Source: Roseimaritima multifibrata (GTDB taxonomy: Bacteria; Planctomycetota; Planctomycetia; Pirellulales; Pirellulaceae). Taken from it: a stretch of DNA of 64,000 bases. The position numbers and the translations under genes were made by a program. The stretch lies in assembly GCF_007741495.1 (NCBI RefSeq), contig NZ_CP036262.1, forward strand, positions 6,572,001-6,636,000, read 5' to 3'. Of the stretch, positions 7,439 to 63,984 are shown piece by piece. Each line of letters opens with the position of its first letter. Position 1 is the stretch's first letter. The notes beneath the pieces are model-generated. The model saw only the letters and a program-made list of their open reading frames with translations. It made no database searches and was not told where the DNA came from.

Positions 7439-7684
7439 GACGCAAAATGCCTAAGTGACGCACGAGGCTTCCTGGGAATGCCAGCGTTATCAACACAAGC
7501 CCCACCGATGCCCAAACGTTTTAGATTTCGATTTGGCTCCCCTACCGTGGCCCTGTGACGACTGGCGAAAACGTCACCAGCCGATCCGACGCGTTCCGGC
7601 AGAGGGGGCCTGATTTCCAGGCAAATTCGTGCCGACGGGCTTCTCGATTTCCAACTCTTCAAGGCCGACTAGTTGGCCACGCGC

Positions 7685-9179: not shown

Positions 9180-10899
9180 AAAACCGGACGCGGATCGCTC
9201 AAAATCACGTCCTGGCGGGATCATCCATGCCTACCAGAAATACGATCCTCAACAATTCCCCAGTCCCTCAGCGCCTCCACCGGACCTAGTATCGCCCGCG
9301 TTCGAACACGCGTTGATGTATGGCAACTTTCGGGAACTAAGCGAGGAAGAACTCGCCCGTGCCGTCCGCCTAGATCCCAGCCAAATCGCTGGATTAGGCC
9401 CCAGCATCGACATGCTAAAAGCGATGCTGGAGGAACGGAAACGAAAAATACTGGCTCGTTACGAAACGCTAAGTGTTCAAAAGAAGGCCCGCCGCAAGTT
9501 TCAAAAAACCGCCCAGAAGCCTCAGCTGCCTAAAAATCTTGCCGCTCGCTACCAACTGGCGATCTCGGCAGAACAACCGTATGAGCTTGAACGTCTGTGG
9601 TACCGAATCGGTGACGACAACAGCCCCCTGGCGAAGACGGTCCTCGATGTACTGCAGCGGATGACCGACCATCACCAAATCGATGAACTTGCCAGCAACT
9701 ACGAATTCACCGGCAAAGAATCGATGTCGATCCCGCAGGCTTTAGAAATCAAAGCCGAATTGGAACAAATCGACGAACTGCTCAAGCAGCTAGAGGAAGC
9801 GGCCAAGACCGCCCAGATCGGCTTGATCGATATGGAACAACTGTCCCAGTTCGCACCTCCAAGTGACATGGAACAACTGGAGGAAATGCGACGCCAAGTA
9901 GAGAACCTCATTCGCGAACAAGCGGCTCGCCAAGGGCTCCAGCCGAAACCAAATGGAGCCGGTTTTCAATTGACCCCGCAGGCCTACAAGATCTTTCAAG
10001 GCCGACTGCTGAAACGGATCTTTAGCGAACTGCAACCATCCCGATCAGGGCGTCACGAAGGGGACGTCGTCGGCGAAGGAGCCGTTGAACTACAGCAAAC
10101 CAAGCCTTACGAATTCGGCGACAGCGTGGCAAACATCGACATGCCACAAACGATCATCAATGCCCTGCTACGGCATGGCGATGACCGTCCGCTGCGACTT
10201 CGCAGCGATGACATCGTCGTCCACAAAACGCGCAACCATCCCAAATGTGCAACCACCGTCATCATGGACATGAGCGGTTCGATGCGCTACGACGGCCAAT
10301 ACATGAACGTCAAACGAATGGCGTTGGCCCTGCAAGGATTGATTCAAAGCGAGTACCCAGGCGACTTCCTGCGGTTCATCGAAATGTACACGTTTGGCAA
10401 ATTAAGGTCGCCAAGCGAGATTATCGAACTGATGCCAAAACCGGTCACCATCCATGATCCATGGATCCAGCTGATGGCCGACATGAGCAACGATGAAATC
10501 AGCGAGCACGAGATCCACCCGCACTTCACCAACATCCAGCACAGCCTGCAATTAGCGCGTCAGGCGATGGTCGGGTGCGACACCCCCAATAAACAGATTG
10601 TGTTGATCACCGACGGACTACCAACGGCCCACTTCGAAGGGTCCAATCTGTATTTGCTTTATCCGCCTCACCCTCGCACCGAACAAGCGACGATGCGTGA
10701 AGGGATGTTATGCAAACGGGACGGGATCACGATCAATATTTTCTTGATCCCCAGCTGGTCGCAAAGCGAAGAAGATATTCGCTTTGCCTACCGCTTGGCC
10801 CAATCGACCTCAGGACGGGTCTTTTTCACTAGCGGAAAAGACCTCGATCGATTTGTTGTTTGGGATTATGTCCAAAACCGGCGGGACATCATCCAGTAA
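9166..10899 (+). CDS. VWA-domain partner of the MoxR-like ATPase
   Basis: A 577-residue protein. The C-terminal third is a von Willebrand factor A domain with a MIDAS motif, DMSGSM (from residue 368), and a later metal-site region, [11 protein letters not shown]. The N-terminal half is helical with a long coiled-coil-like Glu/Gln/Leu-rich segment (about 180-260). The frame is open upstream to 9049, but the ATG at 9166 gives a 14-bp overlap with the ATPase gene, typical of translational coupling. VWA proteins of this kind act as adaptor or substrate-binding subunits of MoxR ATPases. The stop lies 6 bp from the stop of the convergent next gene. Confidence 0.85.
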
Positions 10900-48999: not shown

Positions 49000-49189
49000 A
49001 AGGATTGTCGCCTTTCGCTCCGCCTTCGATTGAACCGACAGGCCGAAAAGGGACGCGGCGGCGGCGACGTCGCCTGCTTGGAAAGCTGAGACATCGGCCT
49101 ACAATCAACTTTGCCTGCTGGCCGGACGGGTGCGTCCAGCAAAAAATCAGCCGCAGTGCCACCTCCTTGCCACGTACAGCCCGCTTATT

Positions 49190-50215
49190 ATGCCGATCAT
49201 CGAGGTTTCTCAGCTTACAAAATCCTATCGCGTCTATCAGAAACGCGAAGGGTTAATGGACAGCGTCCGTGGACTGTTCCACCGTGAATACCGCGAAGTC
49301 GAAGCGGTCAAAGGGATCGATCTAAAAGTCGAACAAGGCGAATTTGTCGCTTTCCTCGGTCCCAATGGGGCAGGAAAAACGACCACGCTGAAGTTGCTGT
49401 CGGGGGTGATCAACCCGACCAGCGGTTCCGCCAAGGTGATGGGTTTTACTCCCTGGGAACGAAAACACGAATACCGCCGCCGCTTCGCTTTGGTAATGGG
49501 GCAAAAAAATCAGCTTTGGTGGGACCTCCCGGCGCAAGAATCCTACCGACTTCATCAACAGATCTACGGCATTGACCCGACGGAATTCCAGCAACGCCTG
49601 GATGAACTGTCGGAATTGCTAGACGTCAAACGCCTGCTCGGCCAACCGGTCCGCGAGCTGTCGCTGGGCGAGCGAATGAAGATGGAATTGATGGCGGCAC
49701 TGCTGCATAACCCGGACGTCCTGTTCCTCGATGAACCGACGATCGGGCTGGATGTGATCGCTCAGCACAACATTCAGCAGTTTCTAAAGTACTACCAAGA
49801 GAAACGCAAAATCACGATCCTGCTGACCAGCCACTACATGAAAGATGTGGCGGCCCTTTGCAAACGGGTTGTGATCATCGCCGACGGCCGCATCCACTAC
49901 GACGGTTCGCTATCGGGAATCATCGACAAGTTTTCTGGTAGCAAAGTGGTCACCTTGCAGTTTGCCGAAGACGTCCAGCCCGACAACTTGTCTGAAATTG
50001 GCGAAGTCATCGAAACCAACTGGCCAAAGGCGAAAATCCATATTCCTCGCAACGAAGTCGCCGCACGCTTGGCTCAGGCCCTTCGTGACCACGTCGTTGA
50101 AGATGTCTCGGTGGAAGATCCTCCGTTGGAAGATGTGATTGCAGATCTCTTCCACTCGGTCGGTAACCACCCTCGAGCCGAAACGTCCCACAGCTCCGAG
50201 GCTCCCCAGGTATGA
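49190..50215 (+). CDS. ABC-2 transporter ATP-binding protein
   Basis: A 341-residue ABC ATPase from the ATG at 49190. It has Walker [10 protein letters not shown] (57-65), the signature [13 protein letters not shown], Walker [13 protein letters not shown] and the switch His in [10 protein letters not shown]. It has the long N-terminal extension ([18 protein letters not shown]) and C-terminal tail typical of the ATPases of ABC-2/DUF990-type exporters. Its last 4 bp overlap the permease gene (ATGA), so the two act as one exporter. The cargo is unknown. A second permease often present in such operons is missing. Confidence 0.92.
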
Positions 50216-51078
50216 GCGCCAGCGAAACGCGATTGCCGACTTTCCACCGAATCCAGACATGGGGGGTGATCCTCCGCATCGCTTTGGAAGAGCGACTGGT
50301 ATATCGCGGTGATTTCGCGTTAGGAACCCTGATGCGGTTCTTGCCGATCGTGACTCAGATTTTCCTGTGGCATGCCGTCTTTGATTCAATCGCCTCAAGC
50401 GACGATCCAAACGGCGAGAAGACGATCGGGGGATTTGGGTTTACCGACATGGTCGCCTATTACCTGATCACGATGATTGCCCGCGCCTTTTCAAGCATGC
50501 CGGGACTGGCCAGCGGAATCGCCCAGCAGATTCGGGAAGGGGAAATCAAACGGTACATGGTGCAGCCGATCGACCTTATCGGTTTCCTGATGCTGCAAAG
50601 GATCGCCCACAAACTGGCCTACTACACAATCGCGATCTTTCCGTTTGCGTTCGTCTTTTTTCTCTGCCGCGGTTACTTCACCGAAGGCTGGCCCTCGGCG
50701 CCGGTGCTGCTGGCATTCGCGGGATCCCTAATCATGGGATTCCTGATCGGTTTCTTCCTGGAAGCGACCATCGGGATGATTGGATTCTGGTTCCTGGAAG
50801 TCAGCTCGCTGCTGTTCATCTATATGTTGTTCAGCTTTTTCCTCAGCGGACACATGTTTCCATTGACACTGCTGCCACCCCAAATTGAACAGGTCGTGCA
50901 GTGGCTGCCGCTGAAGTACCTAGCCTATTTCCCGGCAGCCGTCTTCCTGGGGAAAATTCCCGAAGACGAATTGGCGGGCGAGATGGCAATCGAAGCGGCT
51001 TGGCTGGTCTTCTTCATCATTTTGTGCCGATTCATGTACTCCCGAGGCGTCCGCCGCTACAGCGGATTCGGCGGCTAA
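50212..51078 (+). CDS. ABC-2 family permease
   Basis: A 288-residue membrane protein with about six transmembrane helices. It has [40 protein letters not shown] and [19 protein letters not shown], typical of ABC-2/DUF990 permeases. The tail VRRYSGFGG is also typical. Translation is coupled to the upstream ATPase by a 4-bp overlap. It is convergent with the secretion-type M50 gene but separated from it by a repeat-bearing 467-bp gap. Confidence 0.9.
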
Positions 51079-51126: not shown

Positions 51127-51490
51127 GAGTGTCGCCTTTCGCTCGGGACGTGTGATAAACAAGTTGACGATTTCCGCTCAGGCTGCTCTTGTTTGTTTCC
51201 GCCGGGCTCGTCCCGGTCGGTGCAACAACTGGCAGCTACCTATATGCCTTCCCCCACTCGATCCTTCTCCGCCAGCCCCGAATCGCCTAGGCGATTCGGG
51301 GCTGGCGGAGAACTGCATTTCGATCGTACAAGAGAGTAGCTGCCAGTTGTGAGCCCGCCGGCGCAAGCCCGAAAACGGAACTCTGTCGATCAAATTTCAA
51401 ACCTTGGCTTCCTGCTAGGCAAGCTGGCATGGGGCCTTTTCTCCCTGCCACACTCGCAACTTATAAATCGCACGTCCCACGCGAAAGAAC
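51127..51490. mobile_element. Candidate palindromic MITE with GTCGCC-family ends
   Basis: The left end, 51127-51159, contains GAGTGTCGCCTTTCGCTC, GGGACGTG and ATAAA. The right end, 51461-51490, has the degenerate reverse complement TTATAAATCG, CACGTCCCACGCGAAAG. Inside are a 14-bp inverted pair CAACTGGCAGCTAC (51226-51239) and GTAGCTGCCAGTTG (51336-51349), and the perfect 48-bp palindrome at 51265-51312. No coding frame is believable in the 467-bp gap. Confidence 0.6.
51265..51312. repeat. Perfect 48-bp spacer-free palindrome
   Basis: The 24-bp arms are exact reverse complements with no loop; the centre is CCTAGG at 51286-51291. The left arm starts TTCTCCGCCAGCCCCG. Long perfect palindromes without a spacer are usually unstable in bacteria, so keeping this one suggests a recent insertion or a protein that uses it. 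Confidence 0.9.
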
Positions 51491-51545: not shown

Positions 51546-53744
51546 CTAAAAACGAAACAGCGATGCGAGGCTGCGATAGATGCGCTGAGCGATCGACTGC
51601 GATTCGACCAACACTCGCCCCTGCCCTGATTCGTAGTAGGTCAATGGCAACGCGGTCGCATCCAATTGAATGCGAACCGGATAGGCAAGCTGCTGCGTCC
51701 CGTCTGAGCCCGTTCCCTTCGATCCCTGAACCGTATCGCTAAGGTTATCCTGCTGTGCAATTTCGACGACTTGGCCCGCCAACGCCTGTGATGCAAACCC
51801 GTTCAATTGAACAACCACCGGTTGCCCGATTTGCACAAATTCTAGATCGGCTGGCTGGACCGTTAATAACGCATCGTACCTATCCGGCTTGGCGATCACT
51901 CCCAGCGGAGTTCCCGTTTCCAGGTAAGCCCCTACATTTGCGTCCGCGGTGACTTGTCCATACCAACGTTCCAGTCGCTGCGAATCGCCCTGCTTTGGCA
52001 ACCACTTCGCTGGCACAAATCGACCGCTGGCCGGTGAAGTGATTGTGAGGGCTTTCCTTTTCGCAGCCAGTTTATCGGCTCGTTCCAACAGATCGTCGTA
52101 GGCCGATTGAGTGAACGGGATTTGACTTGCAGCTTCTTCGTCACTTGCCTGAGTCTGCTGCAAACGCTCCAACAACAACCGCTGCGATTCGACTCGCCGC
52201 ATCGCTTTCAGCCACTGCAGTTCCAAGGCCTGGTCCTCCAACTGCAAAACCGTCTCCCCTTTTTCGATCGGTCCCCCAGCCCAAAATCCTGGCATTGCAT
52301 CGCTCAGCCGTCTGCCGGCGGCGGTGACATAAACAGGGACTGGATGATGAGGCACTATTTCGACTTCACCAACGATATAGCGAGGCAGTGGAATCAGCAG
52401 CCCTCCCACCAAGGCAATCCCCACCACACCGGTTCCCAGCAGGTTCCATCGTCTGAATTTGCGAGTAGCGCCGGGAACCCGCAGCATTCGGGTCCATTCT
52501 TTCAGCGGTCGATAAACCATTACCGCAACCGAAAAAACAGCCAGCACCCAGCCAATCGATTGCAAGCCATAAGGTTTAAGAAATTGGCTGACGAACCACA
52601 AAATGACAAGGGTCAGTCCCCACCGGTACAGCGTGGCGGCCACTTGATAAACGATCATCCCAACCGCCGCCCGCCGAGAAACTTGCAGGGGGGCTGGGTT
52701 GCGAACTCCCAGCATCCAACGAGCGACTTGCTGATTTAGATAGCGGCGACTTTGCTGTGCCAGATTCGGCGAATCACACAGATCCGAAAGGATGTAATAG
52801 CCGTCATAACGCAGCAAAGGATTCGCATTAAATAACAGCGTGCTAACCGAACAGACCAGCATCACCTTCATGGCAGCCGCATGCACAAACCCAGGTTCGC
52901 TATACCACCACACAAAGGTCGCAATCGCCGCCAATAAAACCTCCACCCCCATACCCGCAGCCCCAACCGCTGCACGCTGCCAGCGGTTGGTCAACATCCA
53001 GGCGTCCGATGTGTCGCAGTAAAGCGCAGGGGTCATCACCAATAACATCGGACCGATTTCATGGCACTCACGACCGTAGTACTTACAGACAACAGCATGC
53101 CCCAGTTCATGAGCGATCTTGGTCAATCCCAACACGACGGCGAATCCCAGCAGTTGCCTGGGTTGGAACAGTTGCTCGGCCGATGGCATGTCTTGCCAGT
53201 AGGTCCCCGCCTGCGTCACAAACAAAACCACTGCCGCGGCAACCAACACCGCATAACCTACAAGAAACAGAGGATGCAAAGCGAACCGAACCACAGGGAC
53301 GGTCCAACGCAAAAACGGTTCGGGATCGATTCCAGGAAACCGAATAAAAAGGGCACTCTGCAAAACGCCCCAACGTTTTTGCCAACGCGACTGTGTGCTT
53401 CGTTTCCCCAGTGGCATCGCCTGCCCCAAGGTATTTGAAAGCAATAATTCGCTTCGGTGGAATCGAAAAATCAAAGACTGAATCTGCCGTAGGGTCACGC
53501 GATCAGGAGCAAACTTTTTTTGATACGCTGAGCGAATGGATTCCAAATTGGTTCCCTCACGCAACAATTGCAGCACAAACCATTCGTCATTCCGCAACGT
53601 GTGATATTTCAGCGAAATCGGATCTTTAATCGTCACCCGACCCCCAGCGGGAGATTCCGTCTGCTGAGCCTGCAGATCAGCTCGCATCCGCACCTGCAGC
53701 GACTGGCGAGCCGCCAACGCGGGCGGAGGAGGCACGAAAGTCAT
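51546..53744 (-). CDS. PqqD-like/M50-protease-like/HlyD fusion (candidate secretion inner-membrane component)
   Basis: A 732-residue protein. The N-terminal about 110 residues resemble PqqD-like winged-helix domains: DPISLKYHTLRNDEWFVLQL and RQIQSLIFRFHRSELL. The central part is a membrane domain like site-2 proteases, with HELGH (H212, H216) and NANPLLRYDG (D314), where M50 peptidases have metal-binding residues. The C-terminal part (about 445-732) is an HlyD-type adaptor: a strand with VPVYVTAAGRRLSDA, a coiled-coil hairpin, and a barrel with TITSPASGRFVPA. The ATG at 53744 overlaps the stop of the GAF-HlyD gene as ATGA, with GGCGGAAAG upstream; the frame is open to 53759. No ABC ATPase gene is beside it. 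Confidence 0.88.
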   Translation of the reverse strand: MTFVPPPPALAARQSLQVRMRADLQAQQTESPAGGRVTIKDPISLKYHTLRNDEWFVLQLLREGTNLESIRSAYQKKFAPDRVTLRQIQSLIFRFHRSELLLSNTLGQAMPLGKRSTQSRWQKRWGVLQSALFIRFPGIDPEPFLRWTVPVVRFALHPLFLVGYAVLVAAAVVLFVTQAGTYWQDMPSAEQLFQPRQLLGFAVVLGLTKIAHELGHAVVCKYYGRECHEIGPMLLVMTPALYCDTSDAWMLTNRWQRAAVGAAGMGVEVLLAAIATFVWWYSEPGFVHAAAMKVMLVCSVSTLLFNANPLLRYDGYYILSDLCDSPNLAQQSRRYLNQQVARWMLGVRNPAPLQVSRRAAVGMIVYQVAATLYRWGLTLVILWFVSQFLKPYGLQSIGWVLAVFSVAVMVYRPLKEWTRMLRVPGATRKFRRWNLLGTGVVGIALVGGLLIPLPRYIVGEVEIVPHHPVPVYVTAAGRRLSDAMPGFWAGGPIEKGETVLQLEDQALELQWLKAMRRVESQRLLLERLQQTQASDEEAASQIPFTQSAYDDLLERADKLAAKRKALTITSPASGRFVPAKWLPKQGDSQRLERWYGQVTADANVGAYLETGTPLGVIAKPDRYDALLTVQPADLEFVQIGQPVVVQLNGFASQALAGQVVEIAQQDNLSDTVQGSKGTGSDGTQQLAYPVRIQLDATALPLTYYESGQGRVLVESQSIAQRIYRSLASLFRF

Positions 53745-55831
53745 CTTTCCGCCCGCCAAAAGTGAAAACCAATCGACTGCTGAAAAACACGCACCACGTC
53801 GCTAAACCATGACGCCGCCAGCGATCGTTGACCGCACGCGATCTTCGCACGAACCTCCGCCCCCACGTGCCGCTGATTGGGTTCTTCTGCCAACCTAGCC
53901 TCCAGCGGAACATAGCTGGCCCTTGTTTCGTCTCGTTCCGCAGCGGTCCCTATCCGGTTCAACGTCGCAGCGTATTGATGCTCTGGATCGGTCGCCAACG
54001 CGTATTCGATCGCCAACGGTTTGCCTGCGATTTCGGCAGCCGAGCGAACAGTCCCCAAATCTTCGTCGGGCAAAACCAATTCAAGGATCCAGTCTCCCTG
54101 GACATCCGCGATCGTTAGCAACTGGTGCCCCCGACTGACCGGACGACTACCGATCCGTTGTTGCAAATCCCAGCTAACAACCTGCCCCGCCAAAGGACTT
54201 TGAACCTGGAGTTGTTCTTGAAGCTTGCGCAGCAGTTCTACCTGACGCTGCAAATTGTCTCGTTCGGCGACCAACTGCTGTTCTTCTCCGGCCAATCCAC
54301 CGTTCGCGGCAACTGCAGAACCTACCGCGGAAGCATCCCCTACCCTTCGCCTTCCTTCGGATACTCGATTCGATCGCACGGCGGTCAGTCGCCGCTCAAT
54401 CGTCTGGATCTGACCGAGCGACTCTTCAAGTTGACGTTCCAGTTCGGAACTTTGCAAAGTGACAAGAACATCGCCCGGCGTCACAAAATCGCCATGCTGC
54501 ACGCGGACTTCATCGATCACACCATCCAAAGGCGCGAACAGATGTTGACGGTGTGCGGGTTGCAAGCGTCCTTCGGCAACGACGTAGTGCTCCACTTGAA
54601 TCAACGCACCTGCGGCGATCAACCCGACCAGCAGCAGACACGCAACCAGAACCCACCAGCGTTTGCCTCGATCCCACATGCCCCCCAAAAATCGCCAGAC
54701 AGGCAGCAAAAACAATCGGCTATGCGATTGCGAATTATGAAGCGCCCATGCCGCATGATCGATCATCGCTCCTGGGTCAGGAATCGCGACGACGTTCAAT
54801 GCTTCGGATTCAGCTGCGATTTTTTCTAACACCAACATTGCAAAGGGCAATGGACGCGGAACATCCACACCATCGCTATCCGTGGCCGCGTCGGCAACCA
54901 GCGGAATCATCCGCATCCGATCAACAGACGATTGATCCAAATAATCCGCAAGGGCCTCTTCAATCTGCGGCGGCAATTCATCTTCATGAGGATACAGAAA
55001 GGGCTGTTTTGTGACGGCGACGATCCCCGCTAACTGCTCGAGAGCCCGGATCAGATTCGACCGTCGATGAAATTGTGCCGCCCCGCTGACCGCCTCCACG
55101 CGATACCTGCGTCCCCGCCGGACCAGAACCGTCACCCGATCCAACTGCAATAAAAATCGCATATCGTTTGCGATTTGTGCAGCGGTTTGCGAAGCATCCA
55201 ACGAGTGATGAAAACGACTTAAGCTGGACGACGCGGCAGGTTGCATCCCTTGCTGAATAGAAGCGTCGACATGTGGGACCAGGGCGTTCAAACAGCGGAG
55301 CCAAACCGTTTCGGAAACAAGATCCAGTTCACTTGGCATCCAAACCAACAAACGAACATCGTTCAGCGGATCGCTGACGGTCCAGATTCGTCCCGTCGAT
55401 TGCAAAACCGAATCAGCAGGCACCGCCGAAGGCTGCGGCGCCATCCCACGGAAACATGCAAGCAAGTTCGCCTGGACTTCGCTCCGCTGAAAATCATCTT
55501 TTGCGGGCCCGACAAACTGCAAATCGGCCGTCGCGAGTGAACTCGTAATCGGGCCGATGCGATAGACGACCATCCCCGCATGGGTCGTTTCGACGATGGC
55601 TTGGACAACCGATCGCCAGTGATTTTCCGAAACATCCGCTGACCGGGAAGCGGCAGCATCGTGAATCTCGCGGTTATCGATAATCCGCAAAACCCGATCA
55701 ACCAATCCAAGCGGACCGCTAGCCGCACGAATTTCCTCGCGTTGCTCTTTTGCGACATCAGCGGATGAGGGAGGAATCACGGGAACAGTCAAACACCCAT
55801 TGGAAACAGCTAGAAAACCGAACACCACCAT
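53741..55831 (-). CDS. GAF-HlyD periplasmic adaptor
   Basis: A 696-residue protein. A soluble N-terminal region includes a GAF-like domain (about 212-370: SLDASQTAAQIANDMRFLLQ, then RVTVLVRRGRRYRVEAVSG). One transmembrane span (392-412, WVLVACLLLVGLIAAGALI) is followed by HlyD features: a lipoyl-type half (EGRLQPAHRQHLFAPLDGVI, VQHGDFVTPGDVL), a coiled-coil of about 100 residues and a second half (VQSPLAGQVVSW). HlyD-type proteins bridge inner-membrane exporter and TolC. A cytoplasmic GAF on an adaptor suggests ligand-controlled secretion. It is the first gene of the leftward pair and diverges from the TolC-like gene. Confidence 0.87.
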   Translation of the reverse strand: MVVFGFLAVSNGCLTVPVIPPSSADVAKEQREEIRAASGPLGLVDRVLRIIDNREIHDAAASRSADVSENHWRSVVQAIVETTHAGMVVYRIGPITSSLATADLQFVGPAKDDFQRSEVQANLLACFRGMAPQPSAVPADSVLQSTGRIWTVSDPLNDVRLLVWMPSELDLVSETVWLRCLNALVPHVDASIQQGMQPAASSSLSRFHHSLDASQTAAQIANDMRFLLQLDRVTVLVRRGRRYRVEAVSGAAQFHRRSNLIRALEQLAGIVAVTKQPFLYPHEDELPPQIEEALADYLDQSSVDRMRMIPLVADAATDSDGVDVPRPLPFAMLVLEKIAAESEALNVVAIPDPGAMIDHAAWALHNSQSHSRLFLLPVWRFLGGMWDRGKRWWVLVACLLLVGLIAAGALIQVEHYVVAEGRLQPAHRQHLFAPLDGVIDEVRVQHGDFVTPGDVLVTLQSSELERQLEESLGQIQTIERRLTAVRSNRVSEGRRRVGDASAVGSAVAANGGLAGEEQQLVAERDNLQRQVELLRKLQEQLQVQSPLAGQVVSWDLQQRIGSRPVSRGHQLLTIADVQGDWILELVLPDEDLGTVRSAAEIAGKPLAIEYALATDPEHQYAATLNRIGTAAERDETRASYVPLEARLAEEPNQRHVGAEVRAKIACGQRSLAASWFSDVVRVFQQSIGFHFWRAER

Positions 55832-56085
55832 TCAGTATTCGTTTCACCGTACAGAACGGCAGGTTCCGACAATCGATTCCTATCTTATTCAGTCGAACGA
55901 CAGGGACGGCTTGCACCGGAGGCCCATCCTGTTCTGGCAATGATCCTGGCCCCATTTTGACGGTTGTAACGATTGTGCGACCCGCGCCGAGTGAATGACA
56001 ATTCTTAGCATCCCTCCCCGTCAAAAACCGACAATTACCTACAGGAGGAAGGAACCTCAAAAAAGGAAGTGAGACCCAATTGGCA

Positions 56086-57840
56086 ATGCGGCGAGGCAAC
56101 TGGATTTGGCTGGTCCTACTAGGAGGGGTGACCCTTCTGGTAACTGGCTGCCGGTCTAGACCTTCCATGCCGGCCGCGCTCTCCTGGGCCCCACCAACTC
56201 CGATCTTCTATGAAACCGACGTTGCGGCATCGACGCCCGTTCGTGCTCCCCATGCCATCAGCACCCGACCGCCGCAGTCCATCTCAGCCGCCCCCGAATC
56301 GTTCTTAGATTTGACTCGGGAACAGGTCATCGAAATCGCGTTGCAGGACAGCCGAATCTTACGCGAACTGGGCGGACGGATCGTCGACGCACCGGCGGCT
56401 ACGATCACCGCCTACGACCTTGCGCTCCAGCGCAGCGATCCCTTTTACGGTCCCGAAGCGGCACTGGCGGAATTTGATTCGGTGCTGTCCAGCTCGCTGA
56501 CGTCAGCGAACAACGATCGCGTCTTTAACAACGCGGTTCTGGGGGGCGGTGCACAAGAATTAACCCAGGACGCCCTTTCCCTTAAAAGCGGGGTCTCGCG
56601 GCGGTTGATGAACGGAGCCGTCGTCTCGCTCGACCGCCAATTGGATTACGACAGCAACAACCGTTCGGCGAACCTCTTCCCCAGTGCCTGGGAATCGCAA
56701 GTGCAAGTTGGTATCCGCCAGCCCTTGCTGCAGGGAGCCGGCAAAACATTCAATTCAATCGCAGGCCCGAATGCCCAACCAGGATTCTATTTTTCAAACG
56801 GGATCGTGATCGCCCAAATGAATTCGCAAATCAGCGAACTTGATTTTGAAAAAGGACTACAAGACTACATAAGCGAAGTCGAAGAAACGTACTGGGGGCT
56901 GCAAATGGCCTACAAACTTTACGAAGGCGAACGCAGGGCCAGCCAAGCTGCGGAAAAGACCTGGAAAGCCGTTGCTGCGAAAGCGGCCATGCGATTGGGT
57001 GGCGCCGAAGCGGACAAAGAAGCGGAAGCTCGAGCCGATTTCCTGGGTGCCGAGTACCGCACTTTGCTTGCCTTAAATGGCACGAACCGACTGCCTGGCG
57101 TCCATGATTCCGAACGCCGCCTACGCTATCTGATTGGTCTGCCCGCAACCGATGGACACCTGATCCGGCCGTGCGAGCCCGTCTCGACAGCTCCGATCGT
57201 GTTTGATTGGTCAGCGATGCTGGCGGGTGCGATCAACCACCGAACCGATTTACGCAAGCAATCCGTCCGCATCGGACAAGAGGAATTACGGCTGATCGCG
57301 GCAGAAAACTTTCTGCTTCCTCAATTGGATCTGATCGGCCGTTACCGACTAAGAGGCTTCGGCGATGACCTAACCGGCGCGGGACCTCGGTTCGCAAGTG
57401 CATCCGATGATCTCTTTTCTTTTGACCATCAAGAATGGGAATTCGGAGTCGAAATGAAAGTCGTAGCGGGCCGCCGCCAAGCCCACGCAGCGGTCCAACA
57501 TGCAAAACTGCAGATCGAACGCGAACGCTCGATCCTGGTAGAACAGCAGCGCTATGTGGCTCACGAATTAAGCCAAGCGATCGCCAAAGTCGAAGTCCTG
57601 CAGGCGGGGATCCGGATCAGCGGACGTCGCCAACAGGCGGCCTACGAGCGTTTAAATGCCGTCCAAGCACAATACGACATCGGGAAAACAGACATCCATC
57701 GCTTGCTGAATGCCCAAGAGGATGCGATCGAAGCCGAACGGCAAGCGATCGAAACGACAACCGATTACGCGATCGCTCTCAAAGATGTCGCGGTTGCCAA
57801 CGGGACATTGCTGCGTGAGCATGGCGTCATACTGCGCTAA
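56086..57840 (+). CDS. TolC-family outer-membrane factor (lipoprotein)
   Basis: A 584-residue protein from the ATG at 56086 (an in-frame TTG at 56080 is nearly as good). It has a lipoprotein signal ending LLVTGC (C22). The body contains helical repeats of the OEP type: SEVEETYWGLQMAYKLYEGE, RRQAHAAVQHAKLQIERER, and VAHELSQAIAKVEVLQAGIR near the C-terminus. TolC-type proteins trimerise into an outer-membrane channel. It diverges from the GAF-HlyD gene across about 254 bp and lies directly upstream, across the repeat array, of the giant exoprotein, so it fits as the exit duct. Confidence 0.9.
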   Translation: MRRGNWIWLVLLGGVTLLVTGCRSRPSMPAALSWAPPTPIFYETDVAASTPVRAPHAISTRPPQSISAAPESFLDLTREQVIEIALQDSRILRELGGRIVDAPAATITAYDLALQRSDPFYGPEAALAEFDSVLSSSLTSANNDRVFNNAVLGGGAQELTQDALSLKSGVSRRLMNGAVVSLDRQLDYDSNNRSANLFPSAWESQVQVGIRQPLLQGAGKTFNSIAGPNAQPGFYFSNGIVIAQMNSQISELDFEKGLQDYISEVEETYWGLQMAYKLYEGERRASQAAEKTWKAVAAKAAMRLGGAEADKEAEARADFLGAEYRTLLALNGTNRLPGVHDSERRLRYLIGLPATDGHLIRPCEPVSTAPIVFDWSAMLAGAINHRTDLRKQSVRIGQEELRLIAAENFLLPQLDLIGRYRLRGFGDDLTGAGPRFASASDDLFSFDHQEWEFGVEMKVVAGRRQAHAAVQHAKLQIERERSILVEQQRYVAHELSQAIAKVEVLQAGIRISGRRQQAAYERLNAVQAQYDIGKTDIHRLLNAQEDAIEAERQAIETTTDYAIALKDVAVANGTLLREHGVILR

Positions 57841-57965
57841 AGCACAACGCGAGGCAGAAGTTTTCTAGTCGTGAAGCTGCGTGTCCCCTCGGAGGTGCTC
57901 TGAATTTGTCACCCGCCGCGCCCGGTGCCGATGGGTTCCCCGTCGCGGGGGACGTGAAAAATTCT

Positions 57966-58644
57966 GTAGGCCGGATCGAGGAGCAATAGCGACGAAGATC
58001 CGGCAAGCAAGGAATCAGAACCATCTGCCGGAGCTGTATCGCTATCGCTCTTTGATCCGGCCTACTTTTATCATCCCCGACAAACTGGCATGGGGCCGAT
58101 CCCGCACGAACGGATGTAGGCCCGATCGAGGAGCAATAGCGACGAAGCTACGGCAATCAAGGAGCCAGAACCATCCGCCGGAGCTGTATCGCTATCGCTC
58201 TTTGATCCGGCCTACTTTTATCATCCCCGACAAACTGGCATGGGGCCGATTCCGCACGAAGGGATGTAGGCCGGATCGAGGAGCAATAGCGACGAAGCTC
58301 CGGCAATCAAGGAGCCAGAACCATCCGCCGGAGCTGTATCGCTATCGCTCTTTGATCCGGCCTACTTTTATCATGCCCGACAAACTGGCATGGGGCCGAT
58401 TCCGCACGAAGGGATGTAGGCCGGATCAAGGAGCAATAGCGACAAAGCTCCGGCGATCAAGGATTGCCAGAACCATCCGCCGGAGCTGTATCGCTATCGC
58501 TCTTTGATCCGGCCTACTTTTGTCATCCCCGACAAACTGGCATGGCGCCGATTCCGCACGAAGGGTTGTAGGCCGGATCAAGGAGCGATAGCGACGAAGC
58601 TCCGGCAATCAAGGAGCCAGAACCATCCGCCGGAGCTGTATCGC
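57966..58644. repeat. Tandem array of 4.5 copies of a 150-bp nested-palindrome unit
   Basis: Units begin with GTAGGCC at 57966, 58116, 58266, 58416 and 58568. The first three are exactly 150 bp, the fourth 152 bp (2-bp insertion) and the fifth stops after 77 bp. Each unit folds: its start (GTAGGCCGGATC, AGGAGCAATAGCG) is complementary to a later stretch (CGCTATCGCTC, GATCCGGCCTAC), enclosing a second stem (GCTCCGGC with GCCGGAGC). Copies differ at few positions, so expansion looks recent. The gap between the TolC and exoprotein genes (57841-58814) is otherwise empty. The repeated frame (a 50-residue peptide unit) is not a gene. Confidence 0.92.
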
Positions 58645-58814
58645 ACTGCGTCCCCTCGTCGGTTTACCCGGCAGGAACGAAAGATTTGAAATTAGAAGCG
58701 GCTACGAAGCAATTCGGAGGTATCTTCCTCCCCCCCCTTTTCGCTTGCAACGCTGCACAACACGAATTATCGTCGGGACCGGTTCACCCTCTCACTGAAA
58801 TCGGTATTTTCGGC

Positions 58815-61800
58815 ATGTTTCGTTTTTCCCGCCTCCTCCGCAAATCCCTTCAAAAAAACAGCCGTTCGGCTCCCAAACGACTGGCTCCTGCCTGGGAAAC
58901 CTGCGAATTAGAACCTCGAGTGATGCTGGCCGGCGACGCCGGAGCGGTTGTTGCCGATGCTGCTACCGCACCCGCCGCCGAAATGGCCGAGCGGACTCCG
59001 GGCACTCCCTCGGCCGCCGCAAACGACGCCGTTTCCGATGTTTCCAGCGGCGTCACATCAACAGCATCCAGCCTTCTGTTTGTCGATTCCAACGTTGCCG
59101 ATTTCTCGCAATTGACCGACCAGGTCGGCTTGAAAACCGAAGTCATTTTGCTCGATTCGGCGCGTGATGGCTTGGACCAAATATCGGAAATCCTGGCCAG
59201 GCGATCGAACATCTCCTCGATCCATTTATTGACCCACGGCCAAGCTGGACAGATCGAACTGGCAGGTCAAACGATCGATCGGACGACGCTTGAAAATCGC
59301 TCCAACCAGTTGCAAAAATGGGCCAACGCATTGACCCCCGATGCGGACATTTTGCTGTATGGATGCCACACAGGCGCCGATCAAGTGGGTGCCCAGTTTG
59401 TTCGCCGAATGGCTAATCTAACGGGCGCCGATGTGGCAGCCTCCAACGATATGACAGGGCACAAAAATTCAGGCGGTGACTGGGAACTGGAACAACAGAC
59501 CGGCTCGATCGAAACGTCAATCGCTTTCGCCGCGACCGCAACGGAAACCTATCAAGGGGTCCTGCCCATCAGCATCCGAGCCGCTGGGGCAACGGGCGAA
59601 GAACAGATGTCGCTACAAATCGATGGTGTCACTGTCCAAACATGGAATAACATTGGCGGCGATTTCGATGCGGGCGAATTCGAAACCTATACCTTCGACC
59701 CCGGTGAAAGCATTGCGTCCGACCGAATCCGGGTCACTTTCAACAATGACATCTACGAGGAAAATGGAACGGACCGGAACCTCCGTGTTGACAGCATCAC
59801 CGTCGACGGACAAACGCTCCAGACCGAAGACCCTTCGGTCTATTCCACGGGCACATGGAAAGCGGAAGATGGCATCGCCCCAGGGTTTCGAGAAAGTGAA
59901 ATCCTGCATGCCAACGGCTACTTTCAATTCGGCCAAGCGGCAACCATCGGATCGCGAATCACGATCGATGCCGCCGGATCGACCGGCGAAGAAACAATGG
60001 AACTGCGGATCGACGGACAAACCGTTCAGACCTGGCAAAATGTTAGCGGCGACCCTGACAATCGGAACTTCAATACCTACGAATACTTCGCTTCGGAAAC
60101 CGTCACTGCCGATCGAATCCAAGTCGCTTTCACGAACGATTTATACGACCCCAATGGAATCGATCGCAATCTAGTTGTCGATAAAATCCAGGTCGACGCG
60201 ATCGAGTACGAAGCCGAAGCCCCCGAGGTCTTTTCCACAGGATCATGGAAACCAGAAGACGGCGTCCAACCAGGATTTCGAGAGAGTGAATTCCTGAACT
60301 CCAATGGCTATCTGCAGTTTGCCGCAGACGACACTTCAGGCCCTCGTTCAACGATTCGCATCTTTGCGGCCGGGACCACCAACAGCGAACAGATGTCTCT
60401 TCAGATCAATGGCGTGTCATGGCAATCGTGGGACAATATCGGCGGCGATGCGACCACGGGTGATTTTGTTGCCTACACCTACCAAGCTGAAGGAGTCGTA
60501 TCGGCTGACAACGTGCGAGTCGCGTTTACCAACGACTTGCTGGACGGAGACTTTGATCGCAACCTCCGCGTCGACCGAATTGAAATTGACGGGGTTGTCT
60601 TTCAGACCGAAGCCCCCAACGTATTTTCGACCGGCACTTGGTTACCGGAAGATGGACTGGTCGAAGGGTACCGCGAGAACGAATTCCTCCATACCGACGG
60701 GTACTTTCAGTATGCAGCGGCACCTGACAATCCTGGTGTCATCGCCCTCTCGGGAAGTGTTCTAACCGCCAGTGAAACCGACACAGAAGTGGCGATCACC
60801 GTCCTTCGCAGCGGGGGAAGCGACGGCCTGAGCACTGTCGATTTCAGCACATTGGATGGGACCGCGATCGCCGGTGAAGACTACCTACCACAAAGCGGAA
60901 CGCTGACCTTTGAACCGGGACAGACCGAAAAAACGATTTTGGTTTCAATCCTGAATGACAGCCTTGCGGAAGGGAATGAGACGTTCAATTTCGCCATCGA
61001 CAACATCAACGGCGGAGCCACTCTGCTGGCACCGCGAACGGCTACCGTGACCATCGCCGATGACGATACCATCCTTCCCGCCTACACCGATTTCAGTAGC
61101 CTCGCCGGGCTGACATTAAATGAAGATGCGGTCACCAGCAACAATGAACTGCTGATCACAACCGCAACCCGAGCCGAAGAAGGGTCGGCCTTCTTCAATG
61201 CTCCGTTGCCGATCAATGTTGACACCTCTTTTCAAACTCAGTTTCAGTTCAAACTAGACGGCGGGCAACAGTCTTTAGGAGCCGATGGATTCACATTTGT
61301 GCTCCAGAATGATCCGCGTGGCGTGAACGCATTGGGTCCCGGTGGGGGCGACCTAGCGTACACGGGAATCGTCAATAGTTTGGCGATTAAATTTGACACC
61401 TATCAAAATGACGGAGAAATCAACAACAATCACATCTCCGTTGTAACGAACGGCGACATTGCCAACCCGCTGGAAACGCGTATCCCTTTGCTTGACATCA
61501 ACAATGGCGACATCGTCAATACGTGGATCGAGTACAACGGAAACACCAATCAACTGGCCGTTTACGTTTCCGATTCCACGGTAAAACCAGAACAACCTCT
61601 GATTGTCTCCAGCATCGACCTGCCCGCTCTGGTCGGGTCGCAGGCCTACATGGGATTCACCGCTGCAACGGGTGGTTCCTACAATAACCATCGCATTCTG
61701 AACTGGAATGTAAACCTGGAAACGCCCTCCGACATTCTGCCACCGACGCCGGGATCGACGCTCGTTGGCGAAACCCTTTTCGCGGAGCTGAACCAACCGA

Positions 61801-63026
61801 CAGATATCGACTGGAACCCGGACGGGACCAACATGTATATCTCGGAGAAATCGGGACTGATCAAGGTTTCTCGAAATGGAGAACTGCAAGCGACTCCATT
61901 TGTCGACATCCGAAACCAGGTTAACGACACCCGCGACCGCGGCTTGCTAGATATCGCCGTCCACCCTGATTTCGAAAACAATCCTTACGTCTACTTGCTG
62001 TACACCTACGATCCACCCGAGGTTTACGACAATTCCGGACATAGCTTGGCCGGTCCAGACAAAAATGGAAACCGAGCGGGTCGCTTGATTCGGGTGACCG
62101 CCGATGCGTCGACCAACTACACCACGGCCGTCGCGGGAAGCGAAGTCATCCTATTGGGCGCGAATAGTACCTGGGACAACTTCAATGGATTCGCCAACAG
62201 CACCTCCGACTTTAACGAACCACCTGCCGGGATCCTCCCGGACGGTTCCAATGTGCAAGATTTTATCGCCAGTGATAGTGAATCGCACACCGTAGGTTCG
62301 TTGGCGTTTGGAGCGGACGGAAATCTGTTTGTTTCGATCGGTGATGGGGCCAGCTACAACCGAGTCGACCCGCGGGCCGTCCGCGTCCAAGACATCGACA
62401 ATCTCTCTGGCAAAATCTTGCGAATCGATCCACTGACCGGAGCCGGCCTGAGCGACAACCCTTTCTTTGACGTCAGCGATGCCAACGCAAACCGGTCCAA
62501 GGTCTACCAACTGGGGCTTCGCAATCCCTTCCGAATCACCGTCGCCCCCAATAGTGGCGACCTGTTTGTCGGTGACGTTGGCTGGACCAAATGGGAAGAA
62601 ATCAATTCCGCAGCGGCCGGAGCCAATTTCGGTTGGCCCTATTATGAAGGTGGCAGCGGAACCAGCGTGCAAACCAACGGCTACAAAGACCTAGCCGAAG
62701 CGATTGCGTTTTATAACAGCGGAGAAATTGTCACCCCGTCGCAGTTTGCGTTGAACCACGGAGCCGACGGAATCAATGCGATTGTCCTTGGAGCGGTCTA
62801 CAGCGGCGACGTCTACCCAGAAGAGTACCAAGGCGACTTATTCTTCAATGACTTGGGCCAAGGCTTGGTCCGCAACGCCAGCCTGGACGTCGACGGAAAC
62901 GTCATCAATGTGCAGAACTTCACCACCGATGCCGGCGTGGTCGTGTCGATTCAGCAAGGCCCCGATGGGACGTTGCACTACGTCGATCTAGATGACGGAT
63001 TGATCGGACATTGGTACTTCGCCTAA
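58815..63026 (+). CDS. Giant LEPR-motif exoprotein: DUF4347, CBM-like x3, Calx-beta, lectin-like, sugar dehydrogenase-like
   Basis: A 1403-residue protein from the ATG at 58815, which begins with a basic stretch and the motif ELEPRVMLAGD (31-41), the planctomycete LEPR-type N-terminal signature. DUF4347 follows at about 86-248, with H141 (LLTHGQAG) and C184 (LLYGCHTGA), a His/Cys pair like that of caspase-fold (CHAT-like) domains. Three similar modules of about 120 residues (about 251-373, 381-502, 512-634) resemble xylan-binding CBM60 domains. Calx-beta occupies about 640-752 (SGTLTFEPGQTEKTI), a legume-lectin-like domain about 756-970, and a soluble PQQ glucose/sorbosone dehydrogenase-like propeller about 981-1399. 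It is likely surface-bound or secreted by the neighbouring HlyD/M50/TolC genes. Family names are from sequence recognition only. Confidence 0.88.
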   Translation: MFRFSRLLRKSLQKNSRSAPKRLAPAWETCELEPRVMLAGDAGAVVADAATAPAAEMAERTPGTPSAAANDAVSDVSSGVTSTASSLLFVDSNVADFSQLTDQVGLKTEVILLDSARDGLDQISEILARRSNISSIHLLTHGQAGQIELAGQTIDRTTLENRSNQLQKWANALTPDADILLYGCHTGADQVGAQFVRRMANLTGADVAASNDMTGHKNSGGDWELEQQTGSIETSIAFAATATETYQGVLPISIRAAGATGEEQMSLQIDGVTVQTWNNIGGDFDAGEFETYTFDPGESIASDRIRVTFNNDIYEENGTDRNLRVDSITVDGQTLQTEDPSVYSTGTWKAEDGIAPGFRESEILHANGYFQFGQAATIGSRITIDAAGSTGEETMELRIDGQTVQTWQNVSGDPDNRNFNTYEYFASETVTADRIQVAFTNDLYDPNGIDRNLVVDKIQVDAIEYEAEAPEVFSTGSWKPEDGVQPGFRESEFLNSNGYLQFAADDTSGPRSTIRIFAAGTTNSEQMSLQINGVSWQSWDNIGGDATTGDFVAYTYQAEGVVSADNVRVAFTNDLLDGDFDRNLRVDRIEIDGVVFQTEAPNVFSTGTWLPEDGLVEGYRENEFLHTDGYFQYAAAPDNPGVIALSGSVLTASETDTEVAITVLRSGGSDGLSTVDFSTLDGTAIAGEDYLPQSGTLTFEPGQTEKTILVSILNDSLAEGNETFNFAIDNINGGATLLAPRTATVTIADDDTILPAYTDFSSLAGLTLNEDAVTSNNELLITTATRAEEGSAFFNAPLPINVDTSFQTQFQFKLDGGQQSLGADGFTFVLQNDPRGVNALGPGGGDLAYTGIVNSLAIKFDTYQNDGEINNNHISVVTNGDIANPLETRIPLLDINNGDIVNTWIEYNGNTNQLAVYVSDSTVKPEQPLIVSSIDLPALVGSQAYMGFTAATGGSYNNHRILNWNVNLETPSDILPPTPGSTLVGETLFAELNQPTDIDWNPDGTNMYISEKSGLIKVSRNGELQATPFVDIRNQVNDTRDRGLLDIAVHPDFENNPYVYLLYTYDPPEVYDNSGHSLAGPDKNGNRAGRLIRVTADASTNYTTAVAGSEVILLGANSTWDNFNGFANSTSDFNEPPAGILPDGSNVQDFIASDSESHTVGSLAFGADGNLFVSIGDGASYNRVDPRAVRVQDIDNLSGKILRIDPLTGAGLSDNPFFDVSDANANRSKVYQLGLRNPFRITVAPNSGDLFVGDVGWTKWEEINSAAAGANFGWPYYEGGSGTSVQTNGYKDLAEAIAFYNSGEIVTPSQFALNHGADGINAIVLGAVYSGDVYPEEYQGDLFFNDLGQGLVRNASLDVDGNVINVQNFTTDAGVVVSIQQGPDGTLHYVDLDDGLIGHWYFA

Positions 63027-63072: not shown

Positions 63073-63984
63073 TTAGGAGGCCTGTTTTCTTTGGCCAAAT
63101 TTCTCGAATGCCAGGACGGCGAAAAAGGCGGCGGCCGCTAGGCAAATCAAACCGGCGATCGAACCTTCCCATGCGGCCGGAGGAACCAATTCCCAGGTCC
63201 GCTGGGAAAACTTCTCGGCGGCGGTCTCCGCGGTCGCTTGCTGCAGCGGCCACAATTTCCGCAGCGATCCCAACATCAATCCCAACAACATCGCAAACGT
63301 TGCTCCGGGGCGATGGTCTAACAACCAACGCAGGATTCGGCTGAACAAGGCCAAACCGGTCAAGCATCCACAGCCAAACATCACCAGCTGTAAAAAACCG
63401 GGCATCGTGATTTCTCTTGCGACAAAAGCTTTGATCTGCTCCATGATCGGCTGGTAGGCGCCCAGCAGCAACAACACGAAGGCCCCACTGATTCCTGGCA
63501 AAATCATCGCACAGATCGAGATCATGCCCGCGAAAAAGATGAATCCTAGCGACGTATCACTACCCGCCGCGGTCAGGCAACTTAATTGGTACGCTCCGGC
63601 CGCCCCGGCAATCAACAAACACCCTCGCTGGATGTTCCACGTGCCGATCTCTTTGGCAACGATCACGCTGCTGCCCAAAATCAGGCCGAAAAAGACAGCA
63701 AACGTTTCGGCCATCCGGTGATCCAGCAACCAATGCATCAGGCTGGCCAGCGAGAGAATTCCGCCAGCGATACCGATCGCTAAACCGATCAAGAACCTCA
63801 AATCACAATGTTCGCCAACCGCCCGCCAGCGGCGTTCCCGCAGCAGAGCAAGCGCCGTCGGATCGAAGTGACTGATCGCCGTCACCAGCCGCTGGTAATG
63901 GCCAAGAACCAATGCGACCGTCCCACCACTGACCCCGGGAACCGTGTCGGCGGCTCCCATGCAGTAACCGCGCAGCACGTTCAT
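63073..63984 (-). CDS. DUF368 membrane protein (PopT-like polyprenyl-phosphate transporter); start possibly beyond window edge
   Basis: A 303-residue protein from the ATG at 63984 with about eight transmembrane spans. It starts MNVLRGYCMGAADTVPGVSG, the typical DUF368 opening; a second similar motif is AMILPGISGAFVLLLLGAY. DUF368 proteins (PopT) recycle undecaprenyl-phosphate across the membrane for cell-wall and surface-polymer synthesis. The frame is open upstream through to the window end, so the true start may lie beyond it. It is convergent with the giant exoprotein gene. Confidence 0.88.
   Translation of the reverse strand: MNVLRGYCMGAADTVPGVSGGTVALVLGHYQRLVTAISHFDPTALALLRERRWRAVGEHCDLRFLIGLAIGIAGGILSLASLMHWLLDHRMAETFAVFFGLILGSSVIVAKEIGTWNIQRGCLLIAGAAGAYQLSCLTAAGSDTSLGFIFFAGMISICAMILPGISGAFVLLLLGAYQPIMEQIKAFVAREITMPGFLQLVMFGCGCLTGLALFSRILRWLLDHRPGATFAMLLGLMLGSLRKLWPLQQATAETAAEKFSQRTWELVPPAAWEGSIAGLICLAAAAFFAVLAFEKFGQRKQAS

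Follow-up and report, generated by a model that had tools for sequence, protein, structure and literature searches.

A gene set in which M50/HlyD, HlyD and GAF-HlyD genes stand beside a truncated 'secondary SecA' was described in 2015 by Kamneva, Poudel and Ward, who proposed SecA as the ATPase and the M50 protein as the pore (PMC4452313). According to the text of that paper, hosts of the module include Planctomycetes and Proteobacteria, an operon of Methylobacterium extorquens AM1 being among those described; its loci sometimes hold an OEP and contain no ABC transporter, and some secondary SecAs are unlinked to it. A term search of the same text returned no LEPR, DUF4347, PqqD or cargo. In the open-access literature, judged by titles and abstract openings, we found neither a follow-up study of the module nor a paper on the export of LEPR-XLL or DUF4347 proteins. 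Here we analyse a related locus of Roseimaritima multifibrata, contained in a 64,000-nucleotide stretch of DNA (the window; positions 6572001–6636000 of the 7,216,590-base single-contig genome). The locus encodes a fusion of a PqqD-like domain, an M50 membrane domain and an HlyD part (M50-HlyD), a GAF-HlyD adaptor, a TolC-family channel and a large candidate exoprotein (Table 1). An initial annotation had proposed an ABC-less secretion module with no described mechanism; the latter statement was wrong, since the SecA-ATPase/M50-pore idea is set out in PMC4452313.

Judging from sequence comparison, we lean moderately towards reading the locus as a variant, devoid of SecA in cis, of the secondary-SecA/M50-HlyD module, one that would export proteins whose basic N-terminal leaders end in an LExRx(L/M)(L/F)-type motif. 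All four annotated genes, namely the M50-HlyD fusion, the GAF-HlyD adaptor, the TolC lipoprotein and the LEPR/DUF4347 protein, are present. The start codon of the M50-HlyD gene overlaps the stop codon of the upstream GAF-HlyD gene as ATGA, which suggests translational coupling of the two. The M50-HlyD protein carries HExxH as H217/E218/H221 (HELGH) and a NANPLLRYDG motif containing D319 (737-residue numbering), confirming both annotated motifs; their key residues are invariant across a 41-row alignment, the other 40 rows of which were picked by a scan whose pattern included a NANPLLRYDG-type motif. In a wider set, HExxH is present in 161/161 rows and NxNPLxRxDG in 154/161, 75 of these rows having come from a scan whose pattern included the NxNPLxRxDG-type motif. 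The window protein has both sequence features, HExxH and the distal Asp motif, by which an active M50 enzyme would be recognized. The label PqqD-like is applied to it because PF05402 (PqqD) matches other family members: of eight, three are over the cut-off, four are sub-threshold and one has no match. PqqD-type domains bind leader peptides in systems for ribosomally synthesized and post-translationally modified peptides (RiPPs). The M50 part is fused to the HlyD part in all members scanned with Pfam. Combined in a single chain and encoded beside cargo with a shared N-terminal motif, the leader-binding domain, membrane protease and adaptor suggest that recognition, transport and leader removal might take place in one machine.

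The HlyD-type adaptor and TolC-type channel of the window are assigned at the family level, both scoring under the NCBIfam type I cut-offs, and the channel has a lipobox-like N-terminus as judged by eye. The GAF domain of the window adaptor is weak (PF01590 E 0.035, below the cut-off), while that of its paralogue at locus L022 is clear (E 1.2e-9, above the cut-off). The candidate cargo combines the LEPR motif, at residues 75–81 of the TTG frame, with DUF4347, three CBM60 domains, Calx-beta, L-type lectin and GSDH domains. Against the LEPR-XLL model NF012209 it scores 15.2 of the required 17 bits as a whole protein and 20.1 bits, over the cut-off, in the genome search.

The genome possesses five M50-HlyD genes, each next to a second HlyD gene, so the window set represents more than a chance arrangement. 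The L025 locus (7.06 Mb) has the order TolC, SecA-like (612 aa), HlyD, HlyD (485 aa) and M50-HlyD, with the 485-aa HlyD occupying the GAF-HlyD position, and is divergent from a 2711-aa LEPR/DUF4347 gene. At L024, the order TolC, HlyD, HlyD and M50-HlyD is convergent with a gene for a 1728-aa protein that begins with a LESRRLL motif. L022 and L023 had no TolC, SecA or LEPR gene within the 20 kb read. Thus, a large protein of the LExRx(L/M)L type is encoded at three of the five loci (window, L024 and L025) and SecA at one; a separate small HlyD gene is present at the four other loci and absent from the window. The three SecA_DEAD genes of the genome comprise the canonical one, the 612-aa gene of L025 and a 740-aa gene at 100 kb, far from any M50 gene. 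Two of the three DUF4347 genes lie at M50-HlyD loci, and these two are among the three LEPR-XLL matches over the cut-off; four weaker matches lie off M50-HlyD loci.

Across Planctomycetota, an M50-HlyD match at E<=1e-20 was obtained in 102 of 294 genomes; three candidates were scored per genome, which makes calls of absence soft. From ~150 listed matches we took 80 neighbourhoods, leaving out most of those near contig ends and some near relatives; the five loci of this genome brought the total to 85, of which 84, the window among them, contained a typed M50 gene. These loci were hand-chosen among the matches listed and include near relatives, so that the counts that follow ignore kinship; 20 regions from the same genomes served as controls. 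Another HlyD gene on the same strand within 300 bp accompanies M50-HlyD at 77/84 loci, as compared to HlyD at 2/20 controls. Within 9 kb, SecA occurs at 22/84 loci (21 on the same strand), TolC likewise at 22/84, and a LEPR-type protein at 18/84, all against 0/20 controls (Fisher 0.006, 0.006 and 0.02, respectively). Frames of at least 900 aa lie near 49/84 M50 loci but also near 10/20 controls; large size alone is therefore not a useful signal, and it is the motif that separates the two groups. Seven relatives in the same family (L033, L034, L036–L040) have SecA, GAF-HlyD, HlyD and M50-HlyD followed by a large protein, all in one direction, the large protein being scored LEPR-type by motif pattern in three of them. 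TolC, found within 9 kb at 22/84 loci only, is probably encoded elsewhere as a rule. DUF4347 was found within 9 kb at 5/84 loci and in only 18/102 M50-positive genomes, and would therefore represent just one cargo type, the LEPR-type motif being wider.

ABC ATPases of any size lie within 9 kb at 8/84 M50-HlyD loci and 2/20 controls (Fisher 1.0), and those of at least 450 aa at 2/84 loci. The annotated absence of a cognate ABC ATPase is borne out in the relatives by these counts, and the window's own ABC pair does stand apart from the module, convergent and beyond a perfect 24-nt inverted repeat. The initial annotation needs amendment as regards the energy source, which is not simply missing, given the truncated SecA-type ATPase at those 22 loci.

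The association extends to proteobacterial plasmids. From two plasmid searches we opened 13 loci, chosen among the matches listed for variety of genus; at 12 of these, a large gene with the motif lies near the module. The genes of these giant proteins reach 48.7 kb, and at three loci the giant is annotated LEPR-XLL in its record. SecA is present at six loci (L231–L236); in all six the giant gene immediately precedes the module in the same orientation and has xEPRxLLxAD near its start, the motif of L235 lying just upstream of the annotated start and the gene of L236 spanning the record origin, with a frame open to base 7644 that adjoins the module. SecA is absent from seven loci (Variovorax, Eleftheria, Azospirillum, Tistrella, Citrobacter, Thalassospira and Phyllobacterium). 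The motif reads LEARxMFDAA in Variovorax and Eleftheria, LEPRxMFDAA in Azospirillum and Tistrella, LESRQLFDGA in Citrobacter and IEPRILLSAD in Thalassospira. The Azospirillum frame spans the record origin and is open to base 10759, immediately ahead of TolC; the Tistrella gene lies 4.4 kb past the M50 gene, and elsewhere the motif-bearing gene adjoins or lies inside the module. The linkage of module and motif thus holds across phyla. Among the 12 motif loci, the LL type accompanies SecA in 6/6 and is found in 1/6 loci lacking SecA (p 0.015); in the M50 tree, a single clade (100%) unites six of the seven genes from SecA-less proteobacterial loci, and Thalassospira groups with the SecA-linked genes.

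Two further genes were observed at the plasmid loci: one for a small DUF3467 protein, flanked by the giant gene on one side and the adaptor genes on the other at 5/13 (L231, L233, L234, L236 and L247), and one of the SapC family, inside or right beside two modules (L232 and L241).

We compared 32 candidate leaders for which the N-terminus was available, 24 planctomycete and 8 plasmid; plasmid leaders L235, L236, L238 and L250 were left out, and L213, outside the 84 loci, was dropped with its motif match judged to be chance and kept as cargo in the clade counts. The stretch preceding the motif (up to 45 residues) has a median net charge of +7 (n=32), and 29/32 leaders are devoid of a strongly hydrophobic 15-mer by a crude hydropathy measure. 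NF012209 scored over its cut-off in 5/5 LL-type N-termini and 0/3 of the MF or LF type. DUF4347, where present, also follows M50-HlyD at the level of whole genomes: planctomycete genomes with DUF4347 are M50-HlyD-positive in 18/20 cases and others in 84/274 (Fisher 1.8e-7), and outside the window's own class the figures are 9/11 and 43/231, all counted irrespective of phylogenetic relatedness. The two DUF4347 genomes devoid of M50-HlyD have the weakest DUF4347 matches. Of the 32 DUF4347 matches, at least 8 have a listed M50 gene no more than 10 kb away.

The candidate motor is a short SecA, defined here as a frame of up to 760 aa among the matches listed, with the genome total taken as 195. 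The 38 genomes that have one are all M50-HlyD-positive, as compared to 19/157 of the other genomes. Reading the list by eye for frames under 800 aa in the class, 50 M50-positive genomes comprised 42 with a clear short SecA, one partial and seven with none; two M50-negative genomes of the class had no short SecA. A profile of 12 short SecAs aligns to residues 13–608 of the 802-residue chain 1m6n_A, which we take to be Bacillus subtilis SecA, and no further. As the region past residue 608 presumably comprises the wing and the later scaffold with the two-helix finger, the short SecAs appear to be devoid of these elements; all four SecA ATPase motifs are kept in 47/50. When we opened the regions of 20 short SecAs not next to a listed M50 gene, two had M50 and four others had LEPR-type genes. 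At L123 and L128, where the region holds no M50-HlyD, a stand-alone short SecA adjoins a tandem pair of LEPR-type genes, which is an independent link between SecA and LEPR. The genome's own unlinked SecA groups with four M50-linked SecAs of relatives at 98% SH-aLRT, and the M50 genes linked to those four are kin of the L022 gene.

Taken together, a working model for the module can be put forward. The PqqD-like (RRE-type) domain of M50-HlyD would recognize the basic leader in the cytoplasm, and a SecA-type motor would push the polypeptide over the inner membrane, either by way of the M50 membrane domain or alongside it; many relatives encode this motor at the locus, and for the window it would have to act in trans. 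The M50 site, to judge from its conserved catalytic residues, may cut off the leader at or near the membrane, after which the HlyD parts in the periplasm, belonging to the M50 fusion and to GAF-HlyD, would join the TolC-family channel for release, as their fold families suggest. More speculatively, the cytoplasmic GAF domain may gate the motor step.

Several observations weigh against this reading. The window locus has no SecA in cis. Its M50 gene pairs with that of L151 (Planctomycetes bacterium K23_9, 41%) within a 41-row clade in which 0/41 members are SecA-linked, as compared to 33/120 others; the clade was not recovered whole in a smaller tree, where the L151 pairing alone is firm. With its clade holding no SecA-linked member, the energy source is the weakest part of the model. 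A short SecA is not obligatory, since 7/50 M50-positive genomes of the class have none and one more has only a partial one. In G026, which is M50-negative, the sole SecA frame measures 769 aa and so narrowly exceeds the 760-aa limit; with a limit of 800 aa, the proportion of M50-positive short-SecA genomes would be 38/39. This frame may be a canonical SecA cut short. The PqqD-like domain, assigned in the initial annotation and over the Pfam cut-off in three of the eight other family members, was not found by Pfam in the window protein, nor at L022 or L025. As for the annotated cargo pairing, motif-bearing cargo reaches well beyond this genome, but there is no TolC nearby at 62/84 loci and no LEPR-type protein nearby at 66/84, and DUF4347 is as sparse as noted above. 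The refutation that the initial annotation allowed for, M50-HlyD genes occurring mostly apart from TolC or DUF4347, therefore applies in part. In this genome, the third DUF4347 gene (G000:C1:2239832-2240341, a 4290-aa frame) lies away from any M50-HlyD gene, and one of the three LEPR-XLL matches over the cut-off is not near M50-HlyD. Lastly, at the Phyllobacterium plasmid locus none of the large genes bears the motif, and a type I ABC exporter is encoded close by.

Alternatively, the module of the window clade and of the SecA-less proteobacterial clade may be self-sufficient, having lost the short SecA for good, with export driven by the canonical SecA, the proton-motive force or extracellular folding; we regard this as a real possibility, if short of probable. 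At least two tree lineages have no SecA in cis, and three genomes (G018, G168 and G199) have window-clade M50 genes and no short SecA. The SecA-less form is also carried by a Citrobacter plasmid (L246), where a TolC/HlyD/M50-HlyD set lies next to a large DUF4347-like gene. Plasmid records matching the M50 protein include 18 from Escherichia, their neighbourhoods unopened, and 8 from Citrobacter, one of which was opened. E. coli has a single canonical SecA. Against a permanent loss stands the window genome itself: one of its two short SecA genes groups with the M50-HlyD-linked SecAs of relatives, which makes the supply of SecA in trans plausible.

It is unlikely that the cargo instead takes the standard Sec pathway over the inner membrane, with the M50/GAF pair acting as a signalling or surface-retention device limited to trimming or anchoring. 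The GAF-type domain of the adaptor would suit such a role, and M50 proteases are regulatory in other systems; the scarcity of Sec-like hydrophobic stretches in the leaders, by the same crude hydropathy measure, and the fusion of the M50 part to an HlyD part argue the other way. We find it improbable, slightly more so, that the PqqD-M50 part processes a small peptide in a RiPP-like maturation or small-molecule efflux pathway, with HlyD and TolC for export and an unrelated large neighbour. The best NCBIfam match of this part is indeed daptide_HExxH (NF041824, E 4e-49), followed by YydH/LiaK (NF058609); the scores of 167.6 of 300 bits and 41.5 of 225 bits are below both cut-offs, on which ground we rejected daptide or YydH membership, and in both phyla the neighbours that recur are large proteins with the motif. 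Least likely of all, and quite improbable, is a type I system of the ordinary kind that draws its ABC ATPase from the ABC-2 pair or from another place in the genome. HlyD and TolC families are type I parts, the ABC ATPase gene of the pair lies 1.3 kb away and a type I exporter stands near the Phyllobacterium locus. On the other side, the pair is convergent and past the palindrome, ABC genes, as surveyed in the M50-HlyD neighbourhoods, are not commoner there than in controls, and the loci of Kamneva et al., as their text has it, are also devoid of ABC transporters (PMC4452313). The ABC-2 pair was accordingly rejected as the motor of the module.

Table 1 Features of the locus in window coordinates
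Feature	Coordinates	Strand	Details
PqqD-like/M50 (S2P-type)/HlyD fusion	51546..53744	-	732 aa from the likely ATG at 53744; open frame 51546-53759, 737 aa from TTG at 53759; PF02163 and PF13437 over cut-off
GAF-HlyD adaptor	53741..55831	-	696 aa
TolC-family outer-membrane channel (OEP)	56080..57840	+	586 aa; PF02321 E 9e-20; divergent from adaptor pair
Candidate cargo exoprotein	58815..63026	+	1403 aa from ATG; 1446 aa from TTG, frame open from 58686
LEPRVML motif of proposed leader	58908..58928	+	basic stretch before it, net +5 in 45 residues
ABC-2 type ATPase and DUF990-type permease (ABC2_membrane_6)	49130..51078	+	convergent with M50 gene
Perfect 24-nt inverted repeat, no loop	51265..51312		between convergent ABC permease and M50 gene

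The 24-nt inverted repeat is nested within a second 15-nt pair (window 51225-51350), and its arm has no further match within the window; it is probably a bidirectional terminator and delimits the module on this side. The TolC and cargo genes are separated by a tandem array of 4.5 copies of a 150-bp unit (57965-58644). With 264 matches genome-wide, mostly partial, this unit probably represents a dispersed repeat of the REP-like kind and not a gene. A polyprenyl-phosphate translocase family gene (VCA0040-like; 63073-63984) adjoins the cargo gene on the opposite strand. No PADLOC match was found among three proteins checked, and a known defence system was rejected on that basis.

If the reading of the locus as a SecA-module variant is extended, one may propose a distinct secretion system of Planctomycetota and Proteobacteria in which the PqqD/M50/HlyD chain would be receptor, channel and leader peptidase at once, exporting giant proteins with LExRx(L/M)(L/F) leaders; one form would have its own truncated SecA motor and another, to which the window belongs, would need none of its own. 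We put this broader proposal forward tentatively, as nearly but not quite probable. Giant LEPR-XLL and DUF4347 proteins are found in both planctomycetes and Proteobacteria; tying them to the module described by Kamneva et al. supplies it with candidates for cargo, leader and leader-binding domain, and, if true, a SecA-type ATPase would be used outside the SecY channel. The assignment of leader and cargo looks new, as far as the open-access literature was searched.

Among known systems, the module of Kamneva et al., as presented in the text of PMC4452313, is the closest: the window shares its M50 protein with an HlyD domain, the adjacent GAF-HlyD and the absence of an ABC transporter from the locus, and differs in having neither a secondary SecA nor a third, small HlyD gene in cis. 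Since there is no secondary SecA at the locus, we class the window as a variant rather than a full member. The M50 metalloproteases of RiPP systems, daptide and YydH/LiaK, are similar in the PqqD-M50 part, which aligns to positions 13–377 of 379 of the daptide model; the window protein differs in scoring far under the curated cut-offs, in its HlyD fusion and in its large-protein partners. With type I systems (HlyB/HlyD/TolC) the locus shares HlyD-family adaptors, a TolC-family channel and large proteins as secreted substrates, yet it has no ABC exporter, its site-2-type protease is fused to an adaptor and its candidate cargo bears an N-terminal motif leader. Type I cargo has a C-terminal secretion signal. 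Accessory SecA2 systems resemble the module in that relatives have a SecA homologue as partner motor, one that matches SecA2 models; unlike them, the L025 SecA, the one tested, scores below all four SecA2 cut-offs, and the short SecAs, lacking the wing and later scaffold, are paired with M50-HlyD.

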